DNA from: Crocinitomicaceae bacterium | GTDB lineage: Bacteria; Bacteroidota; Bacteroidia; Flavobacteriales_D; Crocinitomicaceae | Direction of reading: 5' to 3' | DNA: 64,000 nt | Assembly (NCBI GenBank): GCA_002709305.1 | Contig: PAQM01000024.1 | Coordinates: 1 to 64,000 of the forward strand | Part shown: piece after piece, positions 27,149 through 50,091 of the stretch | Layout of the letters: the number at the start of each line of letters is the position of its first letter | Position numbering within the stretch: the stretch's first letter is position 1 | Notes under the pieces: generated by a model | The model's database searches: none | What the model saw: only the letters and a program-made list of their open reading frames with translations | Told to the model about the DNA's origin: nothing | Translations under genes and position numbers: made by a program

Positions 27149-27168
27149 AATACCACAAAAAAGGTATT
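27149..27168 (-). promoter_or_regulatory. Candidate iron-regulon operator, copy upstream of secreted HmuY-like gene
   Basis: On the plus strand the site reads AATACC-ACAAAAAA-GGTATT, a perfect 6+6 palindrome. In the sense of the gene the right arm leads into TATTGTTT, in the place of the -7 element, 48 bp upstream of the ATG. The same palindrome precedes the suf operon and the DUF6607 operon. Confidence 0.68.
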
Positions 27169-27196
27169 TATAATCGTTCTAAATAAGATAATAGTA

Positions 27197-29374
27197 TTAA
27201 TAACAATCTGTATGGATTTGAGTTTCAAAATCCGAGACTCTTTTTTTTAGTTTATTTTTTAATATTTCGTCAATTATTTTGAGTACTTCATCTCTCATTA
27301 CTATTGAACCGCAGATTAAGATTTTAGAACCATTATATATACTATTTGAAATGAAATCTTGATTGTTTAAAATAATGTCTTGTACATATTTCGAATTTTT
27401 ATTCTCTTGAGAAAAAACAGATTTAAATTCATTAATTAATTTTTTATCCTTTAATTTTTTAATATGAGGTTCAAATACTTTTAAAACATTTTTTGATTTT
27501 CCACCCCAATATATATGAAAATCAATTTTATTTTTATTTTCATATCCCATCCCTATGAATGGTGTAATTCCTGTTCCGTTCGATATAGCTATAATTTTTT
27601 CAGCATCTTTAGGAAGATTAAAATTTTTATTTTTTTCTATTCTTGCTCTTATATTGCTTCCTATATTAATTTCACTCAGATAAGATGAGCAGATTCCATT
27701 AGGTATTTTTCTCACACAAATAATTGCTAAACCATTCATCCCTTGACCGAGAGAATAATATCTTTCAACCTTATTCTCTAGGTCAGTTATCGCTATTAAA
27801 TCTCCAGACTTAAAATCTTTTTTTGAAAGATTAATCTCCAATAAAAAAGTTTGGTTATTGGACTGATTGGGTATAGTTTTGTTATATATTTTATAAGACA
27901 CCAAATTTTTCAAATTGATCTTTTTTATTTGGACATTCATTTTTTTTGACCAATCATTTGACCATTTATTTAATGATTCAATAGACTTTTCATTTATAAG
28001 TTTTAGAGGAATGAATTCATAACAATTTGTTTGTTTTTTTAGTTTTGTTGAAATATCTTTTGCGAATTGGCAAAACTTTGGATAAGTTTTTGAACCAAAG
28101 CCAACAATGGAAAAATTAAAATCAAATGGTTGCTTAATTTTCTCAAATTTTGAGATAAATTTATTTGCGTTGGATGGCGGGGAGCCATCTCCATATGTTG
28201 AAGTAAATATAATTAGATGCTTTAAATTTTTGTATAAAGTATAATTGTTAAGTTCATCAATGAATATATTTTGACTTGTCTTTATTATATTATTTTTGAA
28301 TTCTTTTGCTATTTGCATTGTGCTACCATTCTCTGAGCCTACTAATATTACTATATCACTTATATCTTTTGTGATATAATTTCTTTTTTTACTCTTAAAT
28401 CTTTTTAATGCCATTTTATATCCTGAAAAAATAAAGAATAGAATATTTAGGCATGATACAAATAAAATTATTGACCAAATTACATTCCCTTTTCCAGTGT
28501 GAAGATTATAACTTAATTGTTTAAATAGTGTTAAATTTTCAATTTTTGATTCGCTAATTATTTCGCCATTAAATTGATTGATTATTAGCTCTTTATCTTT
28601 TAGTTTTACTTTGAAATAATCTTCCTTATCAGAGGAAAATGGGAATTGAATTGATTCTAGTTTCTTTAAATTTGTTTCTTGAAATATCTGAAATTTTTCT
28701 AGCCTTATTTTGTTGTATTTTTCAAATTTATCAGGTTTAAGGTTGTGATTAATTTCATTTTTTTGAGGTAATAAGCCAAATCGATTCATCGATAATATTG
28801 AACCAGACAAAGCAATTATTAAGATGAATACAATACTAGCTCTTGCTAATATAGCATGCCAGTCCTCGTAAAATCCAACTTTGTTGATTTTTTTGAAAAA
28901 GTTTTTTGGAGATATTTGTCTTTTTAGAAGAAGAATAATGCCTGATACAGATATTAGTAGAAGAAAAAAAGAAGATAAACCTATAAAAAACCTTCCCACC
29001 ACCCCCAAAAAGAGAGACCTATGAATAATTTCTGCATATTTAAATATTTTTGATGTCTCTATTTCAGAAACTTTTTTCTTTAAGGTGTCTGGATCTGCAA
29101 AGAATTCTTGATATTCTCCTTTATTTATTAATGATAATTTTAATAGGTTGTTTTTATCTACTTTTATTTCAATTATTTCATCAAATTTTGAATTAAGTTC
29201 ATTAATTAAAGTTGAAATATTTTTATTCCCTACTTTATTAATATTCGCTTCATGGAGTTCAAAAGCAATAGGTTTAAAAGATAAAATTACCCCAGTTAAT
29301 GTTGTAATTATAAGAAACAAGAAAGAACTAATAGCTAGAATTAAATGACTTTTTCGCCAAAAAGATAAAATCAT
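27197..29374 (-). CDS. PepSY-TM / flavodoxin / FAD-NAD reductase fusion (membrane ferric or heme-iron reductase candidate)
   Basis: This 725-residue protein has an N-terminal PepSY-associated membrane part (about residues 1-335) with four hydrophobic helices and periplasmic loops. Next is a flavodoxin-like FMN domain (about 343-480, with VGSENGSTMQIA and TSTYGDGSPPSNA) and a ferredoxin-reductase-like FAD/NAD(P) domain (about 500-725, with RYYSLGQ, NGTGITPFIGMG and KILICGS). The C-terminal half resembles the sulfite reductase flavoprotein/cytochrome P450 reductase group. This architecture is found in Bacteroidota iron-uptake loci and is thought to move electrons from NAD(P)H across the inner membrane to reduce iron. 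It belongs to the DUF6607-ankyrin-DUF2271 operon. Substrate is inferred. Confidence 0.85.
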   Translation of the reverse strand: MILSFWRKSHLILAISSFLFLIITTLTGVILSFKPIAFELHEANINKVGNKNISTLINELNSKFDEIIEIKVDKNNLLKLSLINKGEYQEFFADPDTLKKKVSEIETSKIFKYAEIIHRSLFLGVVGRFFIGLSSFFLLLISVSGIILLLKRQISPKNFFKKINKVGFYEDWHAILARASIVFILIIALSGSILSMNRFGLLPQKNEINHNLKPDKFEKYNKIRLEKFQIFQETNLKKLESIQFPFSSDKEDYFKVKLKDKELIINQFNGEIISESKIENLTLFKQLSYNLHTGKGNVIWSIILFVSCLNILFFIFSGYKMALKRFKSKKRNYITKDISDIVILVGSENGSTMQIAKEFKNNIIKTSQNIFIDELNNYTLYKNLKHLIIFTSTYGDGSPPSNANKFISKFEKIKQPFDFNFSIVGFGSKTYPKFCQFAKDISTKLKKQTNCYEFIPLKLINEKSIESLNKWSNDWSKKMNVQIKKINLKNLVSYKIYNKTIPNQSNNQTFLLEINLSKKDFKSGDLIAITDLENKVERYYSLGQGMNGLAIICVRKIPNGICSSYLSEINIGSNIRARIEKNKNFNLPKDAEKIIAISNGTGITPFIGMGYENKNKIDFHIYWGGKSKNVLKVFEPHIKKLKDKKLINEFKSVFSQENKNSKYVQDIILNNQDFISNSIYNGSKILICGSIVMRDEVLKIIDEILKNKLKKRVSDFETQIHTDCY

Positions 29375-29383
29375 TTTTTTAGA

Positions 29384-29863
29384 TTATTGTGGCAACATAC
29401 GTACATATCTTATGAAACCTTTACCATTAAATTTTTTTTGCAGATTTGAATCAGTTAATTTAAATTCAATATCTTTTTCATAATAATTTTTAGCCTCAAC
29501 TGCACTTTCAAATCTAATTTTATACCCATTATTTATTTTTGATTCATCTAATTGAATAAACTTAATAGCTCGTTCTCCACCTGAAAGAGTACTTCCAGAA
29601 ATTCCATCTAATTTAGTTCTGTTTTTTCCATAAAATTTCCACCATGATTCAATTTCATAATACCAATCTGGATCTTTTCCTTGAACATAGAGAGTTTTTT
29701 CATATTTACCTTTTGGACTAATTAATGAAACAACCACATATGCTCCTTCTCCTTCATAGTTCGTCATTTGAATCAAAAATTTATATTTTTTTTGATTAGC
29801 GATAAATGAGCTAAAAACCAAAATTGAAATACACATAAAAATATTTATAATAATTCGTTTCAT
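29384..29863 (-). CDS. DUF2271-family secreted protein
   Basis: This 159-residue protein has a signal peptide (IIINIFMCISILVFSSFIA) and a beta-sandwich-like body with YVVVSLISPKGKYEKTLYVQG, DWYYEIESWWKFY and GISGSTLSGGERAIKF, which fit DUF2271. Members are regularly found beside PepSY-TM proteins in iron-related clusters, as here, 9 bp upstream of the PepSY reductase. Molecular function is unknown. Confidence 0.75.
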   Translation of the reverse strand: MKRIIINIFMCISILVFSSFIANQKKYKFLIQMTNYEGEGAYVVVSLISPKGKYEKTLYVQGKDPDWYYEIESWWKFYGKNRTKLDGISGSTLSGGERAIKFIQLDESKINNGYKIRFESAVEAKNYYEKDIEFKLTDSNLQKKFNGKGFIRYVRMLPQ

Positions 29864-29866
29864 AGT

Positions 29867-31132
29867 TTATTTTAAAAAATTTAATGGTGTGTTATTTAAG
29901 AGTTCATTTTCTTTTGCTAGCATAAATGCAGTTTCGTTAAAATTTGTTTTTAGTTTTTTGTCTGCTCCATGTTTTAATAAAGTTTTAAGTATTTCATTAT
30001 TTTTTGAATTCATTGCTGAAATGTGAAGAGCAGTCATTCCTTCATTTGTTTTTTCGTTAATATTTTTTATTTCTTTAATTATGTTGTTAATTATTTCTTT
30101 GTTTTTTCTTTTTACGGCTATATGAAGTGCATTTTCTCCCTTTGAATTTTTTTTATTTACATTAGTTTTTTCTTCTATTAAAATTTTAATTCCTTCAATT
30201 GAATTATTTTGTACAGAGTATAAAAAAGGAGTCATACCAATTGAATCACGAGCATTTGTTGATAGATTGTTGTCAATTAAATATCTGTATAAGCTGGTGT
30301 CTGAAGAGTAATTTGCAACATAATGTAAAGCGGTCTTTCCTTTACTATCCTTTACATTGATTGATAATCCTAAATTTTTTAAATATTTGTAGGTCTCGAT
30401 TGAGTTTTTCTTTTTTCTAGTGCCTTTACTTGCATAAATCACCGCAGCATCATTATTTGCTCTTATATTAAGACCCTTTTCAACTAGATAGTTCATTATA
30501 TTTATATTCCCTGTTTTGGAAGCATATACAAATGCATTATTTCCATATTTATCTGTTTGAGTTATATCAAGATTATTAATTGTAAAATAATCTATCATTT
30601 CTGAGTTCGGCATATGAGGAATCAAAAGTAAGAGAGGCGAAGCGCCATCATTATTAAGTTGTTCACTAAATTTCACTCCGTTCGATTTACATAATTCATA
30701 AATTTTTTTGTTTAATTGACCGGTAGTAGCAGCAAAATTAACTAGGCTATATCCATGATCATCAATTATATCTAACTTTGCATTCTCTTTAATTAAGTAT
30801 TCCATTAGTTCAATATTGTCTTTATATGCAGCCCAAAAAATTGGTGGTCTCCCGTCATGAGATTTTTTATTTATACCATTTCCATTCAAATTAATTAAAA
30901 ATATAATTGTTTGATTAGAAACACTCTCCAGTATAGCCCATGTGACAGGGTCAAAATTATATTCGTTTAATTCCGTTGGATCGTTACCTAATTGAATATC
31001 TTTTTTTATTGCTTCGATTGATGGATTAGATGTCCAATATTTTCTTGAAATAAATTTATTTGAAATCTCTTGACTAAAGCAAAAGTTAATACTGTTTAAA
31101 AATATGAAAAAAAAAATACAAATCTTAAACAT
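29867..31132 (-). CDS. Secreted ankyrin-repeat protein
   Basis: This 421-residue protein has a signal peptide (ICIFFFIFLNSINFCFSQ) and about ten ankyrin repeats from residue 70 to the end. Clear units include GRPPIFWAAYKDNIELMEYLI, KGKTALHYVANYSSD, KGENALHIAVKRKNKE and GMTALHISAMNSKN. It should be periplasmic. It lies 3 bp upstream of the DUF2271 gene and 1 bp downstream of the DUF6607 gene, so it is an integral member of the iron operon. Periplasmic ankyrin proteins can act as protein scaffolds or inhibitors; the partner here is unknown. Confidence 0.85.
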   Translation of the reverse strand: MFKICIFFFIFLNSINFCFSQEISNKFISRKYWTSNPSIEAIKKDIQLGNDPTELNEYNFDPVTWAILESVSNQTIIFLINLNGNGINKKSHDGRPPIFWAAYKDNIELMEYLIKENAKLDIIDDHGYSLVNFAATTGQLNKKIYELCKSNGVKFSEQLNNDGASPLLLLIPHMPNSEMIDYFTINNLDITQTDKYGNNAFVYASKTGNINIMNYLVEKGLNIRANNDAAVIYASKGTRKKKNSIETYKYLKNLGLSINVKDSKGKTALHYVANYSSDTSLYRYLIDNNLSTNARDSIGMTPFLYSVQNNSIEGIKILIEEKTNVNKKNSKGENALHIAVKRKNKEIINNIIKEIKNINEKTNEGMTALHISAMNSKNNEILKTLLKHGADKKLKTNFNETAFMLAKENELLNNTPLNFLK

Positions 31133-31133
31133 T

Positions 31134-32036
31134 TTACTTGATATATGCTTTAATTATTTTTTGAATTTTTTTTGGAGAGGTCTCCAAATCCATATAAAAT
31201 AGTTGTTCATATAATTTTTTACCATCAACTTTTGAATGCATTGCAAGATTTTTGTCTTTGTTATAAACTTCATTCCATGAATCTCTTGTATGCTGCCAAA
31301 ATTTATGGTTTTTTTTCCACCATGTTTTTGCAGATTCACATTTTGAATCATCAACACGCTTGTATGTATTATATCCTTTTTCTTGTGCTAAAATAAAATC
31401 AGAATTATTATTTCTAATTACTTTATCATTGTCTTGATCGTGAAGCCATCCATAATTTGTTATCTCATGCCTATTTCTTCTAACAGTAATATTGTAATCA
31501 CTTCTTTGGGTATACTCTCTTCTAGGTAATGGAGCATCAGTGGTATTTTCCCAATAACTTTTGCCATCGACATGAACCCATGAAGAAGAGCCTTCATATC
31601 TGGGGCTGTCGTCTACTTGATATACTTTTTGAGTCCATTGACCTTTTATTTCATCATTAGTTTTTTTAACGAAATTCCATTTATTATCGCCATTGTACAT
31701 ATAAAAGTCATTGTTTTCAAATAACCAATCTTGACGCCAATGTTTTATAATCATAGGGTTATCTTTACCTCCTACTACTAAAAGGTGTTGAATAATTATT
31801 TTATCATTTGAATCTTCCACTAGTTCAGCCCACTCTAATGCATTTGCATGTTTTACTTTTGATGGCATATAGGTTGTATCATCAGAATAATTAAATGTTT
31901 CTGAGAAATTAAATCCAACTTCAAAACAACCACACATTTTTTTGATTGCATTTTGGTCTTTTTCTTGTTTACTTATTTGACTGTAAGTACTCGAAATAAT
32001 TAAAAGATATATAGTTAAAAGAATTAAATTTTTCAT
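31134..32036 (-). CDS. DUF6607-family secreted protein
   Basis: This 300-residue protein has a signal peptide (LILLTIYLLIISSTYSQ), then KKMCGCFEVGFNFSETF near the mature N-terminus and a body rich in Trp (KHWRQDWLFEN, SSWVHVDGKSYWENT). I associate this with DUF6607, a Bacteroidota family seen beside iron-transport genes. It is the first gene of the four-gene operon with the ankyrin, DUF2271 and PepSY reductase genes. A candidate operator lies 90-110 bp upstream. Biochemical role is unknown. Confidence 0.68.
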   Translation of the reverse strand: MKNLILLTIYLLIISSTYSQISKQEKDQNAIKKMCGCFEVGFNFSETFNYSDDTTYMPSKVKHANALEWAELVEDSNDKIIIQHLLVVGGKDNPMIIKHWRQDWLFENNDFYMYNGDNKWNFVKKTNDEIKGQWTQKVYQVDDSPRYEGSSSWVHVDGKSYWENTTDAPLPRREYTQRSDYNITVRRNRHEITNYGWLHDQDNDKVIRNNNSDFILAQEKGYNTYKRVDDSKCESAKTWWKKNHKFWQHTRDSWNEVYNKDKNLAMHSKVDGKKLYEQLFYMDLETSPKKIQKIIKAYIK

Positions 32037-32126
32037 ACGTATTGTGTTAGCTTTTAAAGATTAAACTTAATTGTCTATTATTAATTGACATAATTTTATT
32101 CTTAATAAATTATAATATTATGGAAA

Positions 32127-32146
32127 AATACCTTTTTAATGGTATG
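32127..32146 (-). promoter_or_regulatory. Candidate iron-regulon operator, copy upstream of the DUF6607 operon
   Basis: On the plus strand the site reads AATACC-TTTTTAAT-GGTATG, matching the palindrome at the other two copies at 11 of 12 arm positions. In the sense of the operon the arm GGTATT runs into TATTTTTC, one base off the TAnnTTTG -7 consensus, so the operator overlaps the likely promoter. Confidence 0.66.
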
Positions 32147-32197
32147 ATGTAAGTTAAAACACAGACAACTTTTAGTCTATTTATAATATCTAAGTTT

Positions 32198-32929
32198 TTA
32201 GATTAAATCAGTTAATTCTCTATAATATTTTTGACATTCTTTTAGAAGTGGCTCTAAGTGAATAGGGAACTTTTTTGTTTTTGCTTTATATTTATTAAAT
32301 CCAGTTGATAGATGTACATTATTATACCAATATTTTGCCCATATCCCGTCTTCTTTTTTTGGTCCTGATTTCCATGAAAGCATAGACTCTTGAAATTCTA
32401 TATTGATTTTATTGCATAATTTTTTTAGTTCTTTTCTGGGATTTAATAATATATTTTTGGAGTCAATTACTATTGGTTCAATTTCATGATAATTCATATA
32501 TTTTAATAAATTGATATGATCTTTATATCCTAAATCATTTATAGAGGGATTCTTAATTATTTCATTAAATGATGGAATCATATCGATGGGATTTCTAGTG
32601 AGAATAATATTTATAGTATTCTTCAAGAATTTTTTATCTAGATTTATTAGGTGGTGCGTCATGTTTTTAAAAAATACTATAGGATATTCATGTTCTGCCA
32701 TCATATTTTTTATCACTTTTATCCCATCTTTTTCTTGGCTTTCTAGAACTTCTTTTGCACCAGGATGGTATTGATATGCCGTTGTAGAATTTAGATAATG
32801 TGCATATAATGGTTCATCAAAAACTTTCGTGTCATCTCTTTGAGAAAAGGAGTACATTAAAGCCGTAGATATGTTTCTTGGACCAGACCATAAACAAATT
32901 CTCTTTGTTAAATTCATATTAACTTTCAT
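32198..32929 (-). CDS. Sulfotransferase-like P-loop protein
   Basis: This 243-residue protein begins with ICLWSGPRNISTALMYSFSQRDDT, the sulfotransferase-type P-loop (PAPS 5'-phosphosulfate loop) with its first helix. It has ILTRNPIDMIPSF, resembling the 3'-phosphate-binding RNP motif. It is cytoplasmic. Its N-terminal 11 bp overlap the end of the class IV aminotransferase gene. Plants have proteins in which a related P-loop domain is fused to a branched-chain-aminotransferase-like domain, which suggests the two act on one substrate. Acceptor unknown. Whether PAPS is really used is inferred. Confidence 0.75.
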   Translation of the reverse strand: MKVNMNLTKRICLWSGPRNISTALMYSFSQRDDTKVFDEPLYAHYLNSTTAYQYHPGAKEVLESQEKDGIKVIKNMMAEHEYPIVFFKNMTHHLINLDKKFLKNTINIILTRNPIDMIPSFNEIIKNPSINDLGYKDHINLLKYMNYHEIEPIVIDSKNILLNPRKELKKLCNKINIEFQESMLSWKSGPKKEDGIWAKYWYNNVHLSTGFNKYKAKTKKFPIHLEPLLKECQKYYRELTDLI

Positions 32930-33827
32930 TCACAATTAATTCTTCATACAAGTTGTTTATCTTTCTAGATAAAGGCCCAAAAATCTTAACCCCAATTAAT
33001 TTTCCGTCAATTTTCTTGACTGGGGTTACTCCTCCAAAAGTGCCAGTCACAAAAGCTTCATCAGCATCGTAAACATCAAAAAGAGAAAAGTTTTTTTCTT
33101 TGCATATAATTTTATTTTGGTTACAAATTTTAATAATATTATTTCTTGTAATACCATTCATACAATATTGACCTGTTGATGTCCATACTTCTTTGTTTTT
33201 AATCATAAAAAAATTTGTTGAGTTACATGTTGAAACAAATCCATTGACATCCAACATAAGTGCTTCATCAGCGCCTGCATCAATTGCTTGAATTAGAGCT
33301 TGGACTTCATGTAATTTACTATGGCAGTTTAATCGAGGATCAAGAGTGTCTGGTGAACCTCTTCTTATTGTACTTGTAAATAATTCTAATCCTTTTTCTT
33401 TACTTTCTTTTGATGCCTTTTTATGTTCTGCTATTATTACTAAATTCGGATTAGATACAGTAAACCTTGGGTCTTGTGTTGGTGTTTTTTTTATACCTCT
33501 AGTTAACATAATCCTTATATGGATATTGTCTTCCATTTTATTTGCATCTAGAGTTTGCCAAATTTTTTTAACGAGCTCAGATTTTGTAAAATTTAATTTT
33601 ATGCCAATTACTTTAGCCGATTGCCATAACCTGTCTAAGTGTTGATTTAAAAATATGAGAGAGCCTTTATGTAATCTTATACCTTCCCAAACGCCGTCAC
33701 CTATAAGATACCCACTATCAAAAACTGATATTTTCGCATTATTTCTAGAATATAATTCATCATTAATAAAGATCTTTATTTTTTCGTTTCTTGAATCATT
33801 TTCTGAATTATGTGTACCATGAATCAT
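32919..33827 (-). CDS. Class IV aminotransferase (branched-chain/D-amino acid type)
   Basis: This 302-residue protein has fold-type IV PLP enzyme features: ISVFDSGYLIGDGVWEGIRLH, the PLP lysine in NCHSKLHEVQAL, and the cofactor glutamate region ADEALMLDVNGFVSTCNSTNFF, followed by GITRNNII and EAFVTGTFGGVTPV. It transfers amino groups between amino and keto acids. The sequence is closest to branched-chain or D-amino-acid aminotransferase-like proteins rather than to 4-amino-4-deoxychorismate lyase. It is translationally coupled to the sulfotransferase-like gene by an 11-bp overlap. Substrate not assigned. Confidence 0.85.
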   Translation of the reverse strand: MIHGTHNSENDSRNEKIKIFINDELYSRNNAKISVFDSGYLIGDGVWEGIRLHKGSLIFLNQHLDRLWQSAKVIGIKLNFTKSELVKKIWQTLDANKMEDNIHIRIMLTRGIKKTPTQDPRFTVSNPNLVIIAEHKKASKESKEKGLELFTSTIRRGSPDTLDPRLNCHSKLHEVQALIQAIDAGADEALMLDVNGFVSTCNSTNFFMIKNKEVWTSTGQYCMNGITRNNIIKICNQNKIICKEKNFSLFDVYDADEAFVTGTFGGVTPVKKIDGKLIGVKIFGPLSRKINNLYEELIVNES

Positions 33828-33905
33828 ATGATTGAGTTAAATATTTTTATTCAATATAATAAAAGGAAAAGTATATTTATAATATGTAACTAAAAACCTT
33901 TAATT

Positions 33906-34136
33906 ATGAAAATAAAAGATATTATATTATTTCTTAGTTTAACTTATTCTATCATTATGTCAACATATGCATTTTATCATTCCACTAAACAAAATCAATT
34001 AATAGAATCTAACATTAATTTTATAAGCAAGATTAAAAATAGAATATTAGAGGTTGAGAAAATTGTTGATGGTACTGATAGAATTATAGATAAAGGCAAT
34101 AAAGTAATAGATAAATTAAGCGAAATTTACAAATAA
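33906..34136 (+). CDS. Small membrane-anchored coiled-coil protein
   Basis: This 76-residue protein has one N-terminal hydrophobic helix (IILFLSLTYSIIMSTYAFY) and a charged, heptad-like tail (FISKIKNRILEVEKIVDGTD ...). It is the only rightward gene in this stretch and ends 2 bp before the stop of the convergent gene. No family recognised. Confidence 0.55.
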   Translation: MKIKDIILFLSLTYSIIMSTYAFYHSTKQNQLIESNINFISKIKNRILEVEKIVDGTDRIIDKGNKVIDKLSEIYK

Positions 34137-34138
34137 AT

Positions 34139-34762
34139 TTATGACTTAGTATTTTTTAAGAATCTTGTTATTTCTGATTTTTTTAATAATCTTTTATATC
34201 CTTCATATGTTCTTTCAATTTCTTCCATTGACCAAATTGCACTAACACCGTTCCATAAAATTTGGACTTTAAAGATATTGCCTTCCTTATACATTATTGT
34301 TTTTACATCATCATAGAAGAAAACAACATTATTACTGTATGTGATTTTATTTAGATAATTTTCATAAGAAGTTTTTACATCTATTATTTTTTTTAAAAAA
34401 TTCGTTGCTTGATTTCTTTTTAGTAACTTAAATCCATAGCCCTTGCAACTCCCTTCAAAATCATCCCAAAATTCGCCATAAAATCCAAGGAGTAAACCAA
34501 CATCATCCCAACCTTTTCCTTTCAAAGAGTAGCAAATGGAACTTATTTCATTTGATTTAATTGAAATATATGGATCAAGAACAACTTCTGCAATTGTAAT
34601 TGAATCGTTTATTAATGAATTAGTGATAAATGTTTTTGCCTTTGATAATGTGTAATCTTTATTAAAAGGTGATTTTAACATATATCTTTTAGGACTTATA
34701 TTTTGTGTCTGGCTATAAGAAATTATAGGGACTAATAGTAAAATGATTAATAGTGTTTTCAT
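34139..34762 (-). CDS. Hypothetical secreted protein
   Basis: This 207-residue protein has a clean signal peptide (TLLIILLLVPIISYSQ) and a mature part with YSLKGKGWDDVGLLLGFYGEFW and a C-terminal helix. No domain is recognised. It is probably periplasmic. It lies upstream (in its own sense) of the convergent 76-residue gene and just downstream of tRNA-Gln. Confidence 0.68.
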   Translation of the reverse strand: MKTLLIILLLVPIISYSQTQNISPKRYMLKSPFNKDYTLSKAKTFITNSLINDSITIAEVVLDPYISIKSNEISSICYSLKGKGWDDVGLLLGFYGEFWDDFEGSCKGYGFKLLKRNQATNFLKKIIDVKTSYENYLNKITYSNNVVFFYDDVKTIMYKEGNIFKVQILWNGVSAIWSMEEIERTYEGYKRLLKKSEITRFLKNTKS

Positions 34763-34882
34763 TGTGATAACTAAACTAATAATTATTTGTGAGATAATAA
34801 AAAGCTAATTTTTTAAATATACCAAATAATTTTCCCTAACAAATAACATCCGATAAACTCTATTAATAAAACAATTAAGCAT

Positions 34883-34909
34883 AAAAAAAGGAGCTAGCTT
34901 CCTAACTCC
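34883..34909 (-). terminator. Rho-independent terminator of tRNA-Gln
   Basis: On the minus strand, GGAGTTAG pairs with CTAGCTCC (8 bp with one G-U), separated by a 4-nt loop and followed by seven T. It lies 8 bp after the tRNA 3' end. Confidence 0.82.
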
Positions 34910-34916
34910 CTCGTTG

Positions 34917-42336: not shown

Positions 42337-42342
42337 CTTGAT

Positions 42343-44310
42343 TTATTTATAATTTTTGGTATAGAAGAAATTCATTGATATAATATGGGGGAAACTTATG
42401 CAGGATAAAAACACAAAAAACCAACTAATATGCTCGCTAGTGTTTTTATTAATTATACTTGTGAAAATAAGATAAATAAAAATTGCTCCTAAATTAAATG
42501 GTACTGCTTTAAGGTACATTTTTAAATGAGAAAGGTTTAAATTTTTTTTTATGTCATACCAACCAATAACACTATGGTGAAAAATAAAGTATAAACCAAA
42601 TGTGTATACTAAACTTAACGAATAAGATAGGTATAAAAATAAGCACAATAAAAACCAAGTTAACTTTCTTTTATATATGGAAATGAATGTTGTTCCAGCT
42701 AATAAAATCGTTGATATTGAAGTTAAAATAGTTATGTTAATGTTATCGCTAACATCTATTAGTTTTAATATTTCTTCAAATTCATCAATGTGATTAGAAA
42801 AAATATAGATAAAAATAGTAAGACCCCAAAGTAAAGTTAATACTGGTGATTTAATATTCCAATATCTCATGTCAGTTTGGCCAAAGTGCCAAGAAGAAAA
42901 TAAAATAAAAAAAACAAGGGAGAGAGAAGGGTTTAGAACCCATAGAATAAAAATAGGGATCATTAATAGTAGATATAATAATATAAAGGATATTGTTAAT
43001 TTTTTTGATGAATTAAAAAACCCAGAATAATAGTCTAGTGCACCATGTGGTATTCCAATTAATAAAAGGCCTAATGACATAAATACAATCTGGTTGTTAT
43101 TAAGTAAAACTACTTTTTCTGAATATGATGGTAATAAGGTTAAAATAATTAGTAAGGATGGTATTATTATTTTTTTTGTTTTTAAAAAACACCATATTAA
43201 AAGTGATTTCAAAAAAAGAGAAATTTGAAGCTTAGAAAAAATTTTGATATCATCTCTTAAGTTTGTTTTTTCATCTAGAAATTTAAGAATTAATTTATAG
43301 TCAGAATGTTTAAATAATTTTAGAAAAATATCTTTTCCATATTTAGGCCATTTGTTTAGTATTATCAAAAGTAGCTCATCATAAAGTTGAAACTTCTTTT
43401 TTGTTGTGATTGAACTTTTTTCAACTGCATTATTGCAGATAGATTTAGAGTGGTTGTACATTTTTTTAAATCCATATCCAGTACTAGGTTTAATGTTACC
43501 TGCTCTTGTTCCTAATTCTATTATGTTTTTACTGTTAATATTGGAAAATTTTTTTGTTGACATTGGAATCAGTCCAATTTCTTTTTTCAATAGATCATAT
43601 TCTCCGAAATGGTTTTTAATATATTTATCTAATATCAATTCAGAGTTCTTTCTTTCAATTATATTGTCTGCAAATCTTGTTAATTCAACAAGACCAGTAT
43701 CATTTGAGTATGGAAGCGTGTATACAAATTGAGTCCCTTCTTTTTGTTCCACTCTAAAGTCCATTAAGTTGAATTTGTTTGAATCAAAATTCTTAGCTTT
43801 TAATTTTACTTTGAAACCAATAAAAGATTGATAAATTATTTTTTCTTCTATTAAATACTTCATATTAATTGTTCTACAATCAATAATTTTATAACCAAGA
43901 TATTTTTTACTTCCAACTATAACTTCTGTTATTTTGCTTTCATTTATTTTCGATACTGAATCAATTTTGGAAATAATATTATTTTTTTTAATCACTTTTT
44001 TTGCTGAATCATATAAATCTATACTCTTTATATGAAAGTAAAATAATGGGGCAATTGATTTTGCCTGATAATCTGAGATTTGAATTTTACTCCATTCGTT
44101 TGAAATTATATCTTGATATTCATTATAAATATCATCGGTTTTCCTAGCCCAGAAACAAAAAGTTTTATCATTTTCATTTTTGGTATTAGGGTCTATAATT
44201 AAACTTTTTTTATTTTTTAAAAGGCCTTTTATATCCATTTCTCTTAAGAGAATGCATGTGCTTGCACCAAAACCAGTGAATATATAGTCGTATATCTTTT
44301 TTTCAGCCAT
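42343..44310 (-). CDS. Fusion of lycopene beta-cyclase (CrtY) and beta-carotene 15,15'-dioxygenase (Blh)
   Basis: ATG at 44310 (MAEKKIYDY) gives 655 residues; the frame extends upstream to a TTG at 44334, which lies inside a terminator and is rejected. Residues 1 to about 380 are a lycopene cyclase: an FAD motif near FTGFGASTCILL, DPN near 40-42, TQFVYTLPYSNDTGLVELTRF (193-213) and STGYGFKKM (276-284). Residues about 385-655 are a Brp/Blh-type polytopic dioxygenase with its conserved histidines in GIPHGALD (419-426), SSWHFGQTD (472-480), YFIFHHSVIGW (574-584) and SFPHIISM (639-646). One chain could therefore cyclise lycopene to beta-carotene and cleave it to retinal for the adjacent proteorhodopsin. 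The two steps are normally on separate genes. The frame is continuous, with no stop at the junction. Confidence 0.9.
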   Translation of the reverse strand: MAEKKIYDYIFTGFGASTCILLREMDIKGLLKNKKSLIIDPNTKNENDKTFCFWARKTDDIYNEYQDIISNEWSKIQISDYQAKSIAPLFYFHIKSIDLYDSAKKVIKKNNIISKIDSVSKINESKITEVIVGSKKYLGYKIIDCRTINMKYLIEEKIIYQSFIGFKVKLKAKNFDSNKFNLMDFRVEQKEGTQFVYTLPYSNDTGLVELTRFADNIIERKNSELILDKYIKNHFGEYDLLKKEIGLIPMSTKKFSNINSKNIIELGTRAGNIKPSTGYGFKKMYNHSKSICNNAVEKSSITTKKKFQLYDELLLIILNKWPKYGKDIFLKLFKHSDYKLILKFLDEKTNLRDDIKIFSKLQISLFLKSLLIWCFLKTKKIIIPSLLIILTLLPSYSEKVVLLNNNQIVFMSLGLLLIGIPHGALDYYSGFFNSSKKLTISFILLYLLLMIPIFILWVLNPSLSLVFFILFSSWHFGQTDMRYWNIKSPVLTLLWGLTIFIYIFSNHIDEFEEILKLIDVSDNINITILTSISTILLAGTTFISIYKRKLTWFLLCLFLYLSYSLSLVYTFGLYFIFHHSVIGWYDIKKNLNLSHLKMYLKAVPFNLGAIFIYLIFTSIINKNTSEHISWFFVFLSCISFPHIISMNFFYTKNYK

Positions 44311-44316
44311 TTTTAT

Positions 44317-44346
44317 AAAAAAAAAGCGGTTCAATTGAACCGCTTT
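44317..44346 (-). terminator. Terminator between proteorhodopsin and crtY-blh
   Basis: A perfect palindrome at 44323-44346 (arms AAAGCGGTTC and GAACCGCTTT) is preceded on the plus strand by a run of A, which gives a run of T after the hairpin in the minus direction. It would stop most transcription from the proteorhodopsin promoter before crtY-blh. Confidence 0.85.
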
Positions 44347-44364
44347 TATTAATTGAAATAAATT

Positions 44365-45093
44365 TTACGCTTCTTTAGATTGGTCTACTGCTAATGAATA
44401 AACAACTAGGCCAAATCCTATTTTATTTATTGCATCTCCAATATTGTAGATTACATCCATATCTATGTTGCATCCAAATAATTGTCCTGCTTCTCCATAC
44501 CAACCTGCAGTTCCAGCCATGTATCCAAGTGGATATATTGCCCAACCAATTAGTACGAATTTACATAATATGTTATGTGCTTTCAAAACATTACCTCCTG
44601 CTTTTGTGGCTAATTCCTTAGCTTTGCCAAACATAATTAAGTATACAATGTAGAAGTAAGCAATACCAGAGATCAATCCCCAAATAGCCGCATTTTTCAT
44701 GTCAACTCCTTCTCCCCAATAACCAGTAACTAACATTATTACCGATGCGGTTATTAGAGTCCACATTAATTTCTTTGTTGCTCCAGCTACTCTAAGAATT
44801 AGGTAGAATTCAACACACATTAATGGAACAGTTAATATCCAATCTACATATCTGAAAAAAGTAGGAGATTCTCCATTGGCTGCCCAATAATCTCTCATGT
44901 AATAGTAGTGCACTGCTGCAATAAATGTAATTAAGCCGGACACTAAAATTGATGTCCTCCATTTTTTATCAAATTGATTGATTGATAAAAAGAAAAATGC
45001 AGATGCAGCCATCATGGCCATACATCCAACGAAAAAAGTGAATCCAACGTAGTCCGTAGTATCCATTTTAGCGAGTAATAAAAAATTTTCCAT
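44365..45093 (-). CDS. Proteorhodopsin, green-absorbing proton pump
   Basis: This 242-residue seven-helix protein has, in helix C, RYVDWILTVPLMCVEFYLI. The proton acceptor Asp (D84), Thr (T88) and proton donor Glu (E95) form the DTE set of outward proton pumps. The spectral-tuning position (105 in the reference protein) is Met (M92), the green-absorbing type common in flavobacteria. The conserved His partner of the acceptor is H62, and the retinal Schiff-base lysine is K224 in NIGDAINKIGF. It converts light into a proton gradient. Retinal would come from the CrtY-Blh fusion next to it. The gene has its own promoter and terminator. Confidence 0.97.
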   Translation of the reverse strand: MENFLLLAKMDTTDYVGFTFFVGCMAMMAASAFFFLSINQFDKKWRTSILVSGLITFIAAVHYYYMRDYWAANGESPTFFRYVDWILTVPLMCVEFYLILRVAGATKKLMWTLITASVIMLVTGYWGEGVDMKNAAIWGLISGIAYFYIVYLIMFGKAKELATKAGGNVLKAHNILCKFVLIGWAIYPLGYMAGTAGWYGEAGQLFGCNIDMDVIYNIGDAINKIGFGLVVYSLAVDQSKEA

Positions 45094-45118
45094 TTTATAG
45101 TTTTTAAAGTTTATGGTA

Positions 45119-45165
45119 CAAATTTAACATATTTTGTTTAACAAACTAAAAAAAAAGTTAAACAG
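45119..45165 (-). promoter_or_regulatory. Proteorhodopsin promoter with inverted-repeat motifs
   Basis: On the minus strand TAAATTTG at 45119-45126 matches the TAnnTTTG -7 box, 26 bp upstream of the ATG. A TTG lies at 45142-45144, with a short 15-bp spacer. A 13-bp palindrome, TTTGTT-T-AACAAA, at 45133-45145 overlaps the spacer and -33 region. A related half-site, GTTAAACAG at 45157-45165, forms an inverted pair with TTGTTTAAC at 45134-45142. These look like operator sites. Confidence 0.55.
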
Positions 45166-45206
45166 TTTTAAAAAATTATTTTTTTTTAATTAATAATTTT
45201 CTTCAT

Positions 45207-45214
45207 TACTTTTG
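45207..45214 (+). promoter_or_regulatory. Predicted -7 box of rnpB
   Basis: TACTTTTG is a perfect TAnnTTTG match. Seven bases downstream is the predicted 5' end of RNase P RNA (about 45221-45222). A TTT lies 19 bp upstream in the -33 position. Confidence 0.6.
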
Positions 45215-45221
45215 TAAGTAG

Positions 45222-45600
45222 GGCAAATCAGCTTATCGCTTTATATGAAAATTGTAAAGAGGAAAGTCTGGGCAGCAAAGAGCACCATACTTCTTAACGG
45301 GAAGGGTTCACATTAATTATTTTTTTGTGAACACAGAAAGTGCCACAGAAAGTTAAACTACCTATATTTTTAAATATGGGAAAAGGTGAAAAGGTGAGGT
45401 AAGAGCTCACCAGATGTATGGTGACATACATTGCTTGGTAAACCTTATGGGCTGAAAAACCATGTAAACCTAGTATTGAGGGCTGCTCGTCCAATCTAGG
45501 AGGGTAGGTTGTTTGACGTTAATGGAGACATTAACGCTAGAGAAATGATAAGCGCTATAGTCATAAGATTTTAGTTACAGAACCCGGCTTACGATTTGTC
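45222..45600 (+). ncRNA. rnpB: RNase P RNA
   Basis: The bacterial RNase P RNA core is visible: GAGGAAAGTCTGGGC in the first third, a conserved ACAGAA with CCGGCTTA near the 3' end, and an AGAGCACC/GCCACAGAAA-type middle region. The ends pair as stem P1 (GGCAAATC at 45222-45229 with GATTTGTC at 45593-45600, one G-U). A nearby long-range pair AGCTTATCGC/GATAAGCGCT also fits. A run of T follows at once. It matures tRNA 5' ends with the RnpA protein, which is not in this window. Confidence 0.95.
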
Positions 45601-45647
45601 TTTTTTTTAACTGAGATTTACAAAAATAAAATTGTAATTGAATTAAT

Positions 45648-46196
45648 ATGGAATCAACAAAAAAAGAGTTGAAATTAAAACATCTTTTAACAGAGATTAA
45701 ATCCGATAATATAGACAAAGTTTCAAAGGCAATTAAATCTCTTGAAATACATGGAGATTCTTCCGTTATTCTTCCTTTATCCGAAATATTACTTTCAGGT
45801 ATAAACAAAAAAAATCAAGAAGAAATTATAGAGTTTTTATCTAGCTTGAAGGATACTAGTGTTATTGTTGAAATTATGGAAATTATTAGAGATATTAAAT
45901 TTATCTCTATTCGACCTATTATGCTATCTGTAGTGTGGAATACAAAGGTTGATTTTAGTCATTATATTGATGAATTTGTTGAAATAGCTACTAAAGGATC
46001 AATGATAGAAGCATTAGATTGTTTAACTATTATTGAAAATCTTGAGGGTCCATTTATGGAGGAGAATATACTTGAATGCCATTTACACTTAAAGGATTAT
46101 ATCAAATCATCTAGTAAGAAAGAACAACATAAAGAATCTTTATTACAAGAAATCGCTTTAAAAATTAAAGAAATCACGGAACATATAGATAATTAA
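45648..46196 (+). CDS. Alpha-helical HEAT-like hypothetical protein
   Basis: This 182-residue acidic cytoplasmic protein consists of regular helices of about 15-20 residues, in a HEAT-repeat-like pattern (IDKVSKAIKSLEIHGDSSVI and DTSVIVEIMEIIRDIKF). It follows rnpB by 47 bp. The 3' end overlaps the convergent sufD gene by 4 bp. Function unknown; a protein-binding scaffold is a guess from fold. Confidence 0.68.
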   Translation: MESTKKELKLKHLLTEIKSDNIDKVSKAIKSLEIHGDSSVILPLSEILLSGINKKNQEEIIEFLSSLKDTSVIVEIMEIIRDIKFISIRPIMLSVVWNTKVDFSHYIDEFVEIATKGSMIEALDCLTIIENLEGPFMEENILECHLHLKDYIKSSSKKEQHKESLLQEIALKIKEITEHIDN

Positions 46197-47446
46197 AAAT
46201 TCCATTCAAATCTATCATTTAATAATTGAGATATATATCCTTTGATATTTTGATTTTCGATGTTATTAATTACATCTTGAAAGAATGCTGAGATAAGTAT
46301 ATTTCGAGCTGACTTATCAGATAATCCACGAGTTTTTAGATAGAAAATAGAATTTTGATCTAATTCACCAATAGTCGATCCATGTGAACATTTAACATCA
46401 TCTGCATATATTTCTAATTCTGGTTTTGAATTAATTGATGCATTGTCTGATAATAATATATTTTTATTTGATTGAAATGCATTAATCTTTTGAGCATTTT
46501 TACGCACAAAAACTTTACCATTAAATACTGCTGTTGAGTTATCATCCATTACACCTTTGTATAATTCATGAGAAATGCAATTTTCTACTTTATGGTCAAC
46601 TATAGAATGATTGTCTACATGTTGGTTATTTTTTAATACATAGGCTCCATTTAGATGAGTTTCACAGTTTTGCCCGTTAACATGAATGTTTAAATTATTT
46701 CTAACTATTCTACCATTTAGAGTAAAGGTGTTTATCTTAAAAATTGATTCTTGTTCTTGTTTAACTTGTTCTGTATTGATATGAAATGATTGTTCGGATT
46801 CAGATTGAATTTTATCTATGTTCAATTTAGCGTTTTTAGCAACTTGAATTTCAGAAGTTGAATTACAAAAATTATTATTTCCTGAATCACAGAAAAAACC
46901 TTGAATAAAAGAAGAATTAGAAGATTCCCCAGCATTAATTATTACTTTGAAATTAGAGATTATATTATCGCCTTTTAAGATATGGATAATCTGTATAGGT
47001 TTTTCTAATTTAGTACCTGGTTTAATATCGATCAAAAGTCCATCATTTAAATAGAAAGTATTTATAGCATTAAAAATTTCACCTTTAATTTTTAGGGAGC
47101 TATTAACAAATTCATTATTTTTTTTTGAAAGAACTTTTATTTCAACACCTACAGGAATTTTTTTAGATGAATGTATATTTGAAAAGTGACCATTAATAAA
47201 GATGAAAGAGTATTTAGTATCATCAATTATATATCTAGATATATTATCAATATTGGCTTTATTATTTTCAAAGTTAATATTCCCAAGTTTTGATACTCTA
47301 GTATATTTCCAATTTTCAATTTTTGAGTTGGGTAAAGGTGTATTTTTTATAACAGATATAGCATTTTTTTTATCTTCCTTATTAATATTAATAGCGGTTT
47401 CTTTTAGGAGAGAATTAAGATTGAAATTGTTTTTTTGCTCTGTCAT
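46193..47446 (-). CDS. sufD: Fe-S cluster assembly protein SufD
   Basis: This 417-residue protein matches the SufB/SufD beta-helix family: VPVGVEIKVL-like strands, HVNGQNCETHLNGAYVLKNNQHVDNHSIVDH, DDNSTAVFNGKVFVRKNAQKINAFQSNKNILL and the C-terminal DDVKCSHGSTIGELDQNSIFYLKTRGL. SufD is the scaffold partner of SufB and SufC. It is the last gene of the four-gene suf operon here. The usual downstream sufS and sufE are not in this position; the next gene converges on it. Confidence 0.95.
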   Translation of the reverse strand: MTEQKNNFNLNSLLKETAININKEDKKNAISVIKNTPLPNSKIENWKYTRVSKLGNINFENNKANIDNISRYIIDDTKYSFIFINGHFSNIHSSKKIPVGVEIKVLSKKNNEFVNSSLKIKGEIFNAINTFYLNDGLLIDIKPGTKLEKPIQIIHILKGDNIISNFKVIINAGESSNSSFIQGFFCDSGNNNFCNSTSEIQVAKNAKLNIDKIQSESEQSFHINTEQVKQEQESIFKINTFTLNGRIVRNNLNIHVNGQNCETHLNGAYVLKNNQHVDNHSIVDHKVENCISHELYKGVMDDNSTAVFNGKVFVRKNAQKINAFQSNKNILLSDNASINSKPELEIYADDVKCSHGSTIGELDQNSIFYLKTRGLSDKSARNILISAFFQDVINNIENQNIKGYISQLLNDRFEWNF

Positions 47447-47449
47447 TTT

Positions 47450-48202
47450 CTAAATATCATTTTCTTTTTTAATCCAATCGTAACCATTTTTCTCTAATTT
47501 AAGAGCAAGGTCTTTATCTCCTGATTTAACTATTCTTCCATCCATTAAAACGTGAACAAAATCAGGGACAATATAATCTAATAAGCGTTGATAATGTGTT
47601 ATTACAATTGTTGCATTATTTTCATTTTTTAATTTATTTACACCATTTGCTACAATTCTTAATGCATCAATATCTAAGCCTGAATCTGTTTCATCAAGAA
47701 TAGATAGTTTTGGATTTAGCATAGCCATTTGAAATATTTCATTTCTTTTTTTCTCGCCACCAGAAAAACCTTCGTTGACTGATCGAGAAGTTAATTTTGC
47801 ATTTAGTTCTACTAATTTTGATTTTTCACGAACTAAATTCATATAATCTTTAGCTGTAATAGGTTCATGACCATTTTTCTCTCTTTTTTCATTAATTGCT
47901 GTTTTTAAGAAATTGATATTAGAAACACCAGGGATTTCTATTGGATATTGAAAGGCTAAAAATAATCCTGCCCAAGCTCTCTCCTCTGTAGATAATTCTA
48001 AAAGGTCCTCTCCACAAAAAACAATTGAACCATTTGTCACATCATATTCTTCTTTCCCAGCCAATATAGATGCGAAAGTACTTTTACCTGAACCATTAGG
48101 TCCCATGATTGCATGTATTTCTCCCTTATTAACATTCAGACTTAATCCTTTAAGGATTTCTTTTCCTTCAATTTTAGCATGTAAATTTTTTATCTCAATC
48201 AT
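47450..48202 (-). CDS. sufC: Fe-S cluster assembly ATPase SufC
   Basis: ATG at 48202 (MIEIKNLHAKIEG) gives 250 residues; an upstream GTG at 48211 is also open. The ABC ATPase motifs are all present: Walker A GPNGSGKST, signature FSGGEKKRNE, Walker B LSILDETDSGLD and switch His in VITHYQRLL. SufC drives the SufBC2D scaffold. It lies 3 bp upstream of sufD and 15 bp downstream of sufB. Confidence 0.96.
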   Translation of the reverse strand: MIEIKNLHAKIEGKEILKGLSLNVNKGEIHAIMGPNGSGKSTFASILAGKEEYDVTNGSIVFCGEDLLELSTEERAWAGLFLAFQYPIEIPGVSNINFLKTAINEKREKNGHEPITAKDYMNLVREKSKLVELNAKLTSRSVNEGFSGGEKKRNEIFQMAMLNPKLSILDETDSGLDIDALRIVANGVNKLKNENNATIVITHYQRLLDYIVPDFVHVLMDGRIVKSGDKDLALKLEKNGYDWIKKENDI

Positions 48203-48217
48203 TTTAATCACATTGTT

Positions 48218-49672
48218 TTAACCTACTGATCCTTCAAGACTTATTGTTAATAGTTTTTGTGCTTCAACAGCAAATTCCATAGGTAATTTGTTTAATATTT
48301 CTTTGCAATATCCATTAACAATTAAACTAATTGCTTTTTCTTCTGTAATTCCTCTTTGAAGACAATAAAATATTTGGTCTTCACCAATTTTTGAAGTAGT
48401 TGCTTCATGTTCAATTTTAGCATTTTTATTTTTACATTCTATATATGGGAATGTATGTGCTCCACATTCATCTGACATTAGCAACGAATCACATTGTGAA
48501 AAATTTCTAGCATTTTTTGCATTTTTATGAATTTGAACCAAACCTCTATATGAATTATTTGATTTTCCGGCCGAAATTCCCTTAGATATTATAGTACTTT
48601 TTGTATTCTTACCTAAATGAATCATTTTTGTTCCAGTATCTGCTTGTTGAAAATTATTTGTTACTGCTACAGAATAGAATTCACCTATAGAGTTATCACC
48701 TTTTAAAATGCATGATGGATACTTCCATGTAACTGCTGAACCAGTTTCAACTTGTGTCCATGATATTTTCGAATTTTTTTCACATAAGCCTCGTTTTGTC
48801 ACAAAATTGAAAATACCTCCTAATCCATTTTTATCTCCAGGATACCAGTTTTGAACAGTAGAATATTTTATCTCAGCATTTTCCATTGCTATTAGTTCAA
48901 CTACAGCAGCGTGTAGCTGATTTTCATCACGTTGGGGCGCTGTACAGCCTTCAAGATAGGAAACGTATGAATCTTCATCTGCTATTACAAGTGTTCTTTC
49001 AAATTGACCAGTTTCACCTTCATTAATTCTAAAATAAGTTGATAGTTCCATAGGACATTTAACTCCTTTGGGAATATAACAAAAAGAGCCATCTGTAAAT
49101 ACTGCTGAGTTTAGTGCAGCATAAAAGTTGTCAGACGGTGGAACAACACTGCCCATATATCTTTTAACTAAATTAGGATGTTCTTTAACTGCTTCAGAAA
49201 ATGAACAAAAAATAATTCCTAGTTCTTTTAATTTTGATTGAAAAGAAGTAGCAACAGAAACAGAATCCATAACAAAATCAACTGCTACGTTTGTTCCTGT
49301 AATTCTTTTCTGTTCTTCTAATGAAATACCAAGCTTTTTCATTGTTTCTTTCATCTCTGGTTCTACGTCTTCCCAGCTTTCATACTTTTTTGATTGTTTT
49401 GGAGCAGCATAATAACTAATATCTTGAAATTTGGGTTCAGTAAATTTAACATGTGCCCAATTCGGATTTTCCATTGATTTCCAGATTTTAAAAGCCTTTA
49501 ATCTATTTTGTAATAGCCATTCTGGTTCCTGTTTTTTTGAAGAAATTAATTTAATAATATCTTCGGTAAGACCTTTGGGAGCCTTATCTGATTTAATATC
49601 AGTAGTGAATCCAAACTTGTATTCTTGATTCTTTAAATCTTGAGCTAATTGATCTTCTGTATAATTTGCCAT
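48218..49672 (-). CDS. sufB: Fe-S cluster assembly scaffold SufB
   Basis: This 484-residue protein has the SufB signatures [81 protein letters not shown] and, near the C-terminus, [25 protein letters not shown], with the conserved Cys used in cluster assembly. It forms the SufBC2D complex. It is the second gene of the operon, 6 bp after the A-type carrier gene. Confidence 0.96.
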
Positions 49673-49678
49673 AAAAAG

Positions 49679-50002
49679 TTATATTGAAAATGATTCACCA
49701 CAACCACATGTTCGATCAGCATTTGGATTTATAAAAACAAAGCCTTTGCCATTAAGGCCTCCTGAATAATCTAGAGTTGTTCCTACTAGGTACAAGTAGC
49801 TTTTTTTTTCAACTACGATTTTGATATTATTGTTCTCAAATACTTTATCATTCTCAGACTCTTTATTATCAAAATCTAGTTTGTACATTAGACCGGAACA
49901 ACCACCTCCTTCAACACCTACTCGTATAAAAAGATTTGAGCGATCATCATCTTTCATAAGTCGAAGGGCTTCTTTTTTTGCAGATTCGGTTACTATTATC
50001 AT
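49679..50002 (-). CDS. A-type Fe-S carrier (SufA/IscA/ErpA family)
   Basis: This 107-residue protein has the three conserved cysteines of A-type carriers: GVEGGGCSGLMY and the C-terminal RTCGCGESF. It accepts Fe-S clusters from the SufBCD scaffold and passes them to target proteins. It is the first gene of the suf operon. A promoter and a candidate operator lie upstream at 50062-50091. Confidence 0.93.
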   Translation of the reverse strand: MIIVTESAKKEALRLMKDDDRSNLFIRVGVEGGGCSGLMYKLDFDNKESENDKVFENNNIKIVVEKKSYLYLVGTTLDYSGGLNGKGFVFINPNADRTCGCGESFSI

Positions 50003-50061
50003 AATAAATTTGTTACTATTCCATGTAGAAATAGTTAAATAACACGATGAATTAACGAGTA

Positions 50062-50091
50062 CAAAAATACCTTTTTTATGGTATTCAACAA
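50062..50091 (-). promoter_or_regulatory. suf promoter with overlapping iron-regulon palindrome
   Basis: In the minus sense, TTG (50089-50091), a 19-bp spacer and TATTTTTG (50062-50069) form a near-ideal Bacteroidota promoter. The 20-bp palindrome AATACC-N8-GGTATT at 50066-50085 fills the spacer and overlaps the first four bases of the -7 box. Bound regulator would block the promoter. The predicted leader is about 53 nt. Confidence 0.72.

Follow-up and report, generated by a model that had tools for sequence, protein, structure and literature searches.

How does a bacterium of the Bacteroidota coordinate the uptake of iron with the assembly of iron-sulfur (Fe-S) clusters? The question is raised by a stretch of 64,000 nucleotides from a Crocinitomicaceae bacterium (assembly GCA_002709305.1, contig PAQM01000024.1, positions 1 to 64,000; hereafter the window), in which one palindrome, AATACC-N8-GGTATT, stands in the promoters of three transcription units: the gene of a secreted HmuY-like protein, a DUF6607-ankyrin-DUF2271-PepSY operon and the suf operon. 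Such coordination is poorly known in the Bacteroidota, and 16 of 40 relatives show no protein of the Rrf2 family, the Fe-S sensor family used elsewhere. The palindrome is a conserved operator that links heme and iron uptake with Fe-S assembly and marks a regulon. On balance it is slightly favoured here as the operator of a second iron regulator working with Fur, whose reader would be an orphan three-cysteine protein with a NarL/LuxR-type helix-turn-helix (HTH) and a two-way mechanism.

The Palindrome in the Window and the Genome

An earlier note on this DNA described three copies of the palindrome, and their positions and sequences proved correct. Two are exact (27149-27168 and 50066-50085) and one has a single arm mismatch (32127-32146), all on the minus strand, as are the other window features given below. 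The window has a G+C content of 28.8%. With at most one mismatch, the window has three sites where 300 Markov-1 sequences average 0.21; only one of these sequences reaches three, and two exact sites were seen in none of the 300. When three mismatches are allowed, the window has no clear excess (52 sites vs 43.6 expected; 9 of 100 shuffles reach 52). A chance origin is ruled out by the Markov-1 sequences, together with the reversed-pattern control in relatives and the comparison of the spacing to the -7 element with shuffled sequences, both described below.

The whole genome (G000, 2.3 Mb) contains 12 places with at most one mismatch, compared with 6 for the reversed pattern, while the scan at two mismatches is uninformative (23 sites vs 23 in the control). 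Two further sites are exact, both at operons of iron type. One, at C28:104149, precedes a DUF4856-imelysin-HTTM/VKGC-TonB receptor operon, and the other, at C12:180906, precedes a lipoprotein-like gene and a TonB receptor gene, with an epimerase-like gene on the opposite side. Six of the seven one-mismatch places remaining outside the window's three sites fall inside open reading frames (ORFs). The operon at C28:104149 holds the same kinds of genes as RAYM_09779-09794, which the excerpted section on fur and iron restriction in a study of Riemerella gives as a TonB receptor, a vitamin K-dependent gamma-carboxylase, an imelysin lipoprotein and a hypothetical protein (PMC5609570). A one-mismatch site with GGTATTTTTG also occurs at C5:74064 (L006, L036) before an aromatic amino acid lyase gene (PF00221), which sits in a cluster that looks by eye like one for fatty acid synthesis; this site may be due to chance.

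Conservation in Relatives

The conservation of the sites in close relatives, on which the earlier note had staked its regulon, was borne out both at uptake genes and at suf. When an A/T-rich spacer was required, exact sites were present in 14 of 40 genomes and in 78 of 399 genomes of the order, the own genome included, and the reversed-pattern control gave 0 in every row listed of both scans. Among the 77 distinct strict sites in the loci fetched from relatives, 64 adjoin iron, heme or Fe-S genes, where a site counts as iron-type if an ORF in one of the author-set gene classes starts within 350 nt on either side. These 64 sites comprise 17 at DUF4856 genes, 15 at TonB receptors, 12 at SufA, 7 at porin-like genes, 5 at HmuY-like genes, 3 at imelysins, 2 each at FeoA and FeoB, and 1 at the ankyrin operon. 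"Porin" is the author's label, as that protein has no Pfam match, and the label "imelysin" does not fit most of the rows that bore it: the reference protein is a DUF4856 protein and the true imelysin is next in the operon. At least two of the 13 remaining sites also belong to the regulon by context, namely L164, a suf locus matching L243, and L167. The 77 sites are those of the fetched loci, whereas the 399-genome scan gives only the matches listed and leaves further matches unclassified; the relatives are in any case non-independent samples.

The suf promoter provides a second measure of conservation. The sufA gene was found in 38 of the 40 genomes, and 37 promoters could be read, the own one included, with that of G016 truncated at the edge of its contig. 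An exact core TACC-N8-GGTA occurs in 27 of the 37, while five have one mismatch, one has two and four have three. In shuffled suf promoters, where as in the shuffles for Fur boxes, candidate gene promoters and -7 spacing only the composition is kept, the core is exact in 0.2% and within one mismatch in 6%. The extended pattern TACC-N8-GGTATTTTTG, in which the right arm runs into the -7 element, is complete in 23 of the 37, and in many a TTG is visible by eye just above the left arm. The site is absent from four genomes (G025, G035, G036 and G037). Family f9 seems to lack the site only when the spacer must consist of A and T alone; its suf promoters show the common spacer ACAAATTA.

Outside the order, TACC-N8-GGTATTTTTG has little or no enrichment (22 matches in 244 genomes vs 16 for the reversed control). 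Because only the own genome among the three order genomes in this phylum sample matches the pattern, it is the pattern's presence in 23 of 37 suf promoters that supports the contrast between order and phylum. A scan for the suf-type site in the contigs of 84,980 species gave 50 loci, 13 of which have a suf gene below the site by BLAST, with L229 alike by eye. The 13 come from Crocinitomicaceae, Fluviicola, Lishizhenia, Cryomorphaceae and Flavobacteriales bins, among others, and many of the remaining loci look by eye like chance matches. Two further observations concern single loci. In L170, the site lies beside a ferritin gene (PF00210), and in two relatives (L129 and L165) a similar gene, a methyltransferase by Pfam in L129, stands under the palindrome and a Fur box.

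Two Promoter Registers

The earlier note had placed the right arm of the palindrome in the -7 element of all three window promoters. This is correct for suf and the DUF6607 operon and wrong for the HmuY-like gene. In the suf promoter, the exact palindrome at 50066-50085 lies between a -33-like TTG (50089-50091) and the -7 element TATTTTTG (50062-50069), which overlaps the right arm. The site of the DUF6607 operon (32127-32146) has the same suf-type register, with the -7 element TATTTTTC at 32123-32130 again overlapping the right arm. In contrast, the palindrome of the HmuY-like gene (27149-27168) runs in the gene sense into GGTATTG, which holds the -33 TTG, and the -7-like element GAAATTTG follows 21 nt below the arm (27120-27127). 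The assignment of this site to an uptake register follows the spacing rule seen in relatives.

That rule was derived from 45 uptake contexts, which are the relatives' rows assigned to the author-set gene classes. A G comes directly after the arm in 38 of the 45, giving GGTATTG, which holds the -33 TTG. A strict TAnnTTTG starts exactly 21 nt below the arm in 25 of the sites, and 18 have no strict element in range. When mismatches are allowed, 41 of the 45 sites have their best -7 element at a distance of 21-22 nt from the arm, compared with 13% of shuffled sequences. At suf, the -7 element starts inside the right arm in all 12 AATACC contexts of the relatives.

By convention, the -7 element is taken as spanning -11 to -4. 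On this scale the uptake palindrome ends at -33 and is centred near about -42.5, and the suf palindrome, between -33 and -7, is centred near about -17.5. The uptake position is that of a class II activator and the suf position that of a repressor. The proposal of the earlier note that one repressor coordinates uptake with cluster assembly therefore survives in part: there is one conserved operator, but a repressor's role is less expected at the uptake site, which stands at a class II activator position.

Fur Boxes Beside the Palindrome

The earlier note had also found the palindrome unlike a Fur box. It is indeed not one, and most of these promoters have a separate Fur-type box. In the relatives, 45 of 57 classified promoter contexts have a box with at most two mismatches, made up of 34 of the 45 at uptake genes and 11 of the 12 at suf, compared with 0.8% of shuffled sequences. 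It may abut the palindrome upstream, lie between -33 and -7, or lie below -7. The box beside the palindrome, TTTAGAATnATTCTAAA, agrees with the Fur box ATTTAGAATTATTCTAAAT of Riemerella, for which electrophoretic mobility shift assays (EMSA) of promoters holding the box are reported in the excerpted text; the Riemerella box thus matches the second box of these promoters and differs from the palindrome (PMC5609570). This genome has one Fur-family gene. Fur probably reads the neighbouring box.

In the window, a good Fur box is found only at the HmuY-like promoter, where TTTAGAACGATTATAAA (gene sense; 27167-27183) abuts the palindrome upstream and has one mismatch to TTTANAATNATTCTAAA, the box type of the Riemerella EMSA study (PMC5609570). 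In the 37 suf promoters, the own one included, the best Fur-type box has at most two mismatches in 34 and lies mostly below -7. The best box of the own suf promoter has three mismatches and is located elsewhere.

Gene Content of the Three Units

The HmuY-like protein (25866-27101) is secreted and carries a Por secretion tail (PF14064, PF18962). The second unit begins with the DUF6607 protein (31134-32036) and continues with an ankyrin-repeat protein (29867-31132), a DUF2271 protein (29384-29863) and a PepSY-TM/flavodoxin/NAD-binding reductase (27197-29374). The suf operon opens with a SufA-type Fe-S carrier (49679-50002; PF01521), followed by SufB (48218-49672; PF01458, PF19295) and two further ORFs, SufC and SufD by position only (47450-48211 and 46193-47446). 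The earlier statement that all three units concern iron or Fe-S clusters is supported by protein family for HmuY and suf, while the iron role of the DUF6607-ankyrin-DUF2271-PepSY operon is a presumed one. The same stretch of DNA as suf also encodes a bacteriorhodopsin-like protein (44365-45093; PF01036), possibly a light-driven pump.

A Three-Cysteine NarL-Type Protein as Candidate Reader

A candidate for the reader was found because the site of one relative (L167, in G088) precedes a NarL-type regulator gene. This gene, a three-cysteine paralog under the palindrome and a Fur box, lies directly before DUF6607. The corresponding protein of this genome is encoded at C6:178333-178968 on the minus strand and has 220 amino acids; the family, of about 225 amino acids, has a Response_reg domain and a GerE domain. 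In the candidate, the receiver (PF00072, 8.8e-14) is followed by the GerE HTH (PF00196, 1.4e-20), and its model fits a NarL-type fold, with the solved structures of VraR, RcsB and NarL among the matches.

The complete acidic phosphorylation pocket of response regulators has the form DD...D...K. In the candidate it is incomplete: the consensus of the aligned sequences reads xxxVLADSN, in which A replaces the first acidic residue (A6-D7), while D53 and K102 are kept. Because of this replacement, the candidate appears to be an atypical or orphan member of the NarL/LuxR-HTH proteins with an eroded receiver pocket. Three cysteines, C104, C124 and C146, are invariant in all 30 aligned sequences, an alignment that left out one fetched locus (L293) having the same three. 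The set is missing from the other NarL-type regulator of this genome and from three control regulators of relatives. Among the best 25 of 40 response-regulator equivalogs of NCBIfam (MctR, MadR, NarL, FimZ and others), none reaches its cut-off, and the highest score is 112.1 bits, against a cut-off of 300, for MctR.

The candidate gene itself has a Fur box with at most two mismatches in 26 of 30 loci, compared with 0.3% of shuffled promoters, and in 18 of the 30 the best box stands 19 nt before the start; the four control regulators' boxes have five to six mismatches. A best match with an E-value of 6.8e-33 or better was found in 37 of the 40 genomes, the exceptions being G001, G002 and G013. 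Across 118 genomes sampled from the phylum, E-values are 3e-105 to 2e-107 for the three that belong to the order and no better than 6e-53 for the others. Two of 27 best matches fetched from outside the order have all three cysteines, and their genes have Fur-like boxes with two and three mismatches.

The DNA site is likewise compatible with a NarL-type protein. TACC-N8-GGTA has the geometry of inverted heptamers two bases apart (7-2-7), which NarL is described as preferring, and sites such as TACCCTAAAAAGGGTA (L032) are close to the engineered NarL reference palindrome TACCCCTAAAGGGGTA (PMC4549865). On the whole, it is probable that the three-cysteine protein reads the palindrome. That its cysteines bind a cluster is put at about even odds.

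Proposed Mechanism and Alternative Readings

From the sites, registers, Fur boxes and cysteines established above, we infer the binding of the candidate, the sign of its regulation and its ligand as follows. In iron-replete cells, Fur, bound at its own boxes, would keep the candidate gene and the uptake operons repressed. During iron shortage Fur would leave, and the candidate could then accumulate and bind AATACC-N8-GGTATT as a dimer. At the uptake operons, where the site is near -42.5 and overlaps -33, it would activate transcription. At suf and the DUF6607 operon, where the site lies between -33 and -7, it would block RNA polymerase, limiting cluster assembly and saving iron. The three cysteines might let it sense iron, an Fe-S cluster or the redox state. 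Provided that the candidate does read the operator, activation of uptake with repression of suf is more likely than repression of both.

Several observations weigh against this two-way mechanism or its reader. The own suf, DUF6607 and C12 TonB receptor sites have no good Fur box (best three to four mismatches), and the C12 site does not keep the 21-nt spacing to -7. G001, G002 and G013, which are 79-92% complete, have a suf site with zero or one mismatch but no close ortholog of the candidate; G025, G035, G036 and G037 have no suf site though their candidate match is 6.8e-33 or better. No palindrome within two mismatches is present in the candidate's own promoters in 30 loci, only the G088 paralog having one. 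In the predicted structure C146 falls in a low-confidence loop, and clustering of the cysteines is not readable from the model. Lastly, the NarL precedent for the sign is not uniform: the 7-2-7 sites are placed at -40 to -49 for napF, an activated gene, and close to the start for frdA, a repressed one, but activated narG of E. coli is without 7-2-7 sites (PMC4549865).

The same operator might instead serve a common co-repressor, the three-cysteine protein or another, which in its Fe-S-loaded form would repress uptake and suf together with Fur, so that loss of the cluster derepresses both. IscR and RirA, which are Fe-S-loaded repressors, provide the model. Both registers overlap core promoter elements; the candidate has its three invariant cysteines, this genome yielded no Rrf2 protein, and most of these promoters also contain a Fur box. 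A repressor does not need a fixed spacing to -7, yet one is maintained at 41 of the 45 uptake sites; the -33 TTG that these share could, however, be what sets it. Moreover, a repressor whose own gene is under Fur would be lowered at high iron. This alternative is unlikely, if worth keeping in view. It is also rather improbable that another NarL/LuxR-HTH protein, such as a two-component regulator, or some other factor reads the palindrome while the three-cysteine protein has a different site. Other families of the Bacteroidota do have the palindrome with TTTTTG before genes for TPR-histidine kinases (HisKA_3 or HATPase_c; L226, L232 and L269), the TPR protein of L255 is cut by the end of the piece with only its repeats visible, a GerE-HTH protein lies below the site in L240, and a second NarL-type regulator is encoded in this genome at C1:45169. 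That regulator gene is without a Fur box (five mismatches), and the strict sites of this order are mostly iron sites.

Of the regulator families that the earlier note had suggested looking for, Rrf2, DtxR and Fur fared poorly as readers. Rrf2 has no match in G000, which is 99.7% complete, nor in 6 of 13 other genomes with the strict motif, and is ruled out as the reader in this genome. The sole DtxR-family protein, first favoured as a single-copy regulator, was set aside on account of its own palindrome: 16 of 30 DtxR promoters, the own one included, carry the even palindrome GTTAG-N6-CTAAC, and it is this rather than AATACC-N8-GGTATT that stands in the regulator's own promoter. Fur, like DtxR, is present in one copy, and the target genes are iron genes, but most promoters with the palindrome also contain a box of Fur's own type; a reading of the palindrome by either protein is scarcely credible. 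The DtxR gene (L088, G000:C15:78819) and its relatives (L068-L097) are in many cases divergent from a receptor-like gene, which looks like a separate metal switch. Very improbable, too, is activation through the palindrome by MliR, the MerR-like iron regulator of Bizionia. An ortholog is encoded in this genome (L274 1958-2305), but its HTH differs little between the genomes of the order that have the suf site and three that do not (G025, G036 and G037), the palindrome has NarL-type geometry, and no DNA site was found in the excerpted text of the MliR paper, which nowhere mentions a palindrome (PMC9478572). MliR was set aside on the similarity of the HTH and the geometry of the site. By eye, no recognisable iron genes adjoin the ortholog.

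The favoured reading, in which the three-cysteine protein acts in two ways beside Fur, comes with a defined operator and a list of its targets, a logic based on two positions and a specific candidate protein, and is thereby open to direct testing. Top-ranked open-licence matches in the literature gave no description of the operator or of a three-cysteine NarL-type iron regulator. A more far-reaching version, which is tentative and rather doubtful, is that a group of Bacteroidota made its own Fe-S sensor from a NarL-type regulator: its pocket eroded, its receiver-linker cysteines holding an Fe-S cluster, its gene controlled by Fur, and its one operator turning uptake on at -42.5 and Fe-S assembly off at -17.5, it would replace IscR and RirA. 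If the cysteines do hold a cluster, the protein would represent a new family among Fe-S sensors.

Comparison With Known Systems

Elsewhere, the Rrf2 proteins IscR, RirA and NsrR coordinate iron and Fe-S genes or sense clusters, and they too are three-cysteine sensors. Their fold, however, is unrelated to that of the candidate, and no such protein was found in this genome. Within the Bacteroidota, MliR of Bizionia argentinensis is likewise a non-Fur iron regulator, with overlapping types of targets, but has a MerR-like fold (PMC9478572). In the Bacteroidales, response-regulator genes beside a hemerythrin gene, PG1236-38 of Porphyromonas and BT0519-20 of Bacteroides, are upregulated in iron-dependent stimulons (PMC10434189, in excerpt) and, matched by description only, may be the counterpart of the three-cysteine protein.

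The closest likeness in circuit logic is to SsoR of Shewanella, an orphan response regulator that is repressed by Fur and activates siderophore synthesis genes, adding activation to the siderophore operon as is proposed here for uptake. SsoR belongs to the OmpR/PhoB subfamily, and the excerpted text of its report makes no mention of cysteines or suf (PMC11045786). In the arrangement of the uptake site, the parallel is with the lux box, an inverted repeat of 20 bp from which a LuxR-type protein activates when the repeat is centred at -42.5; another member of the LuxR family, EsaR, represses (PMC3376562). LuxR differs in sensing acyl-homoserine lactones in quorum sensing (PMC3376562). E. coli NarL shares with the candidate the same domain pair, a likeness that extends to the 16-bp inverted TACC...GGTA core and to the positions of the 7-2-7 sites, since that of napF, which NarL activates, is near -45 and that of repressed frdA is close to the start (PMC4549865). 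While NarL is a phosphorylated nitrate regulator (PMC4549865), the candidate is an apparent orphan whose pocket is eroded, whose three cysteines are invariant and whose gene is preceded by a Fur box.

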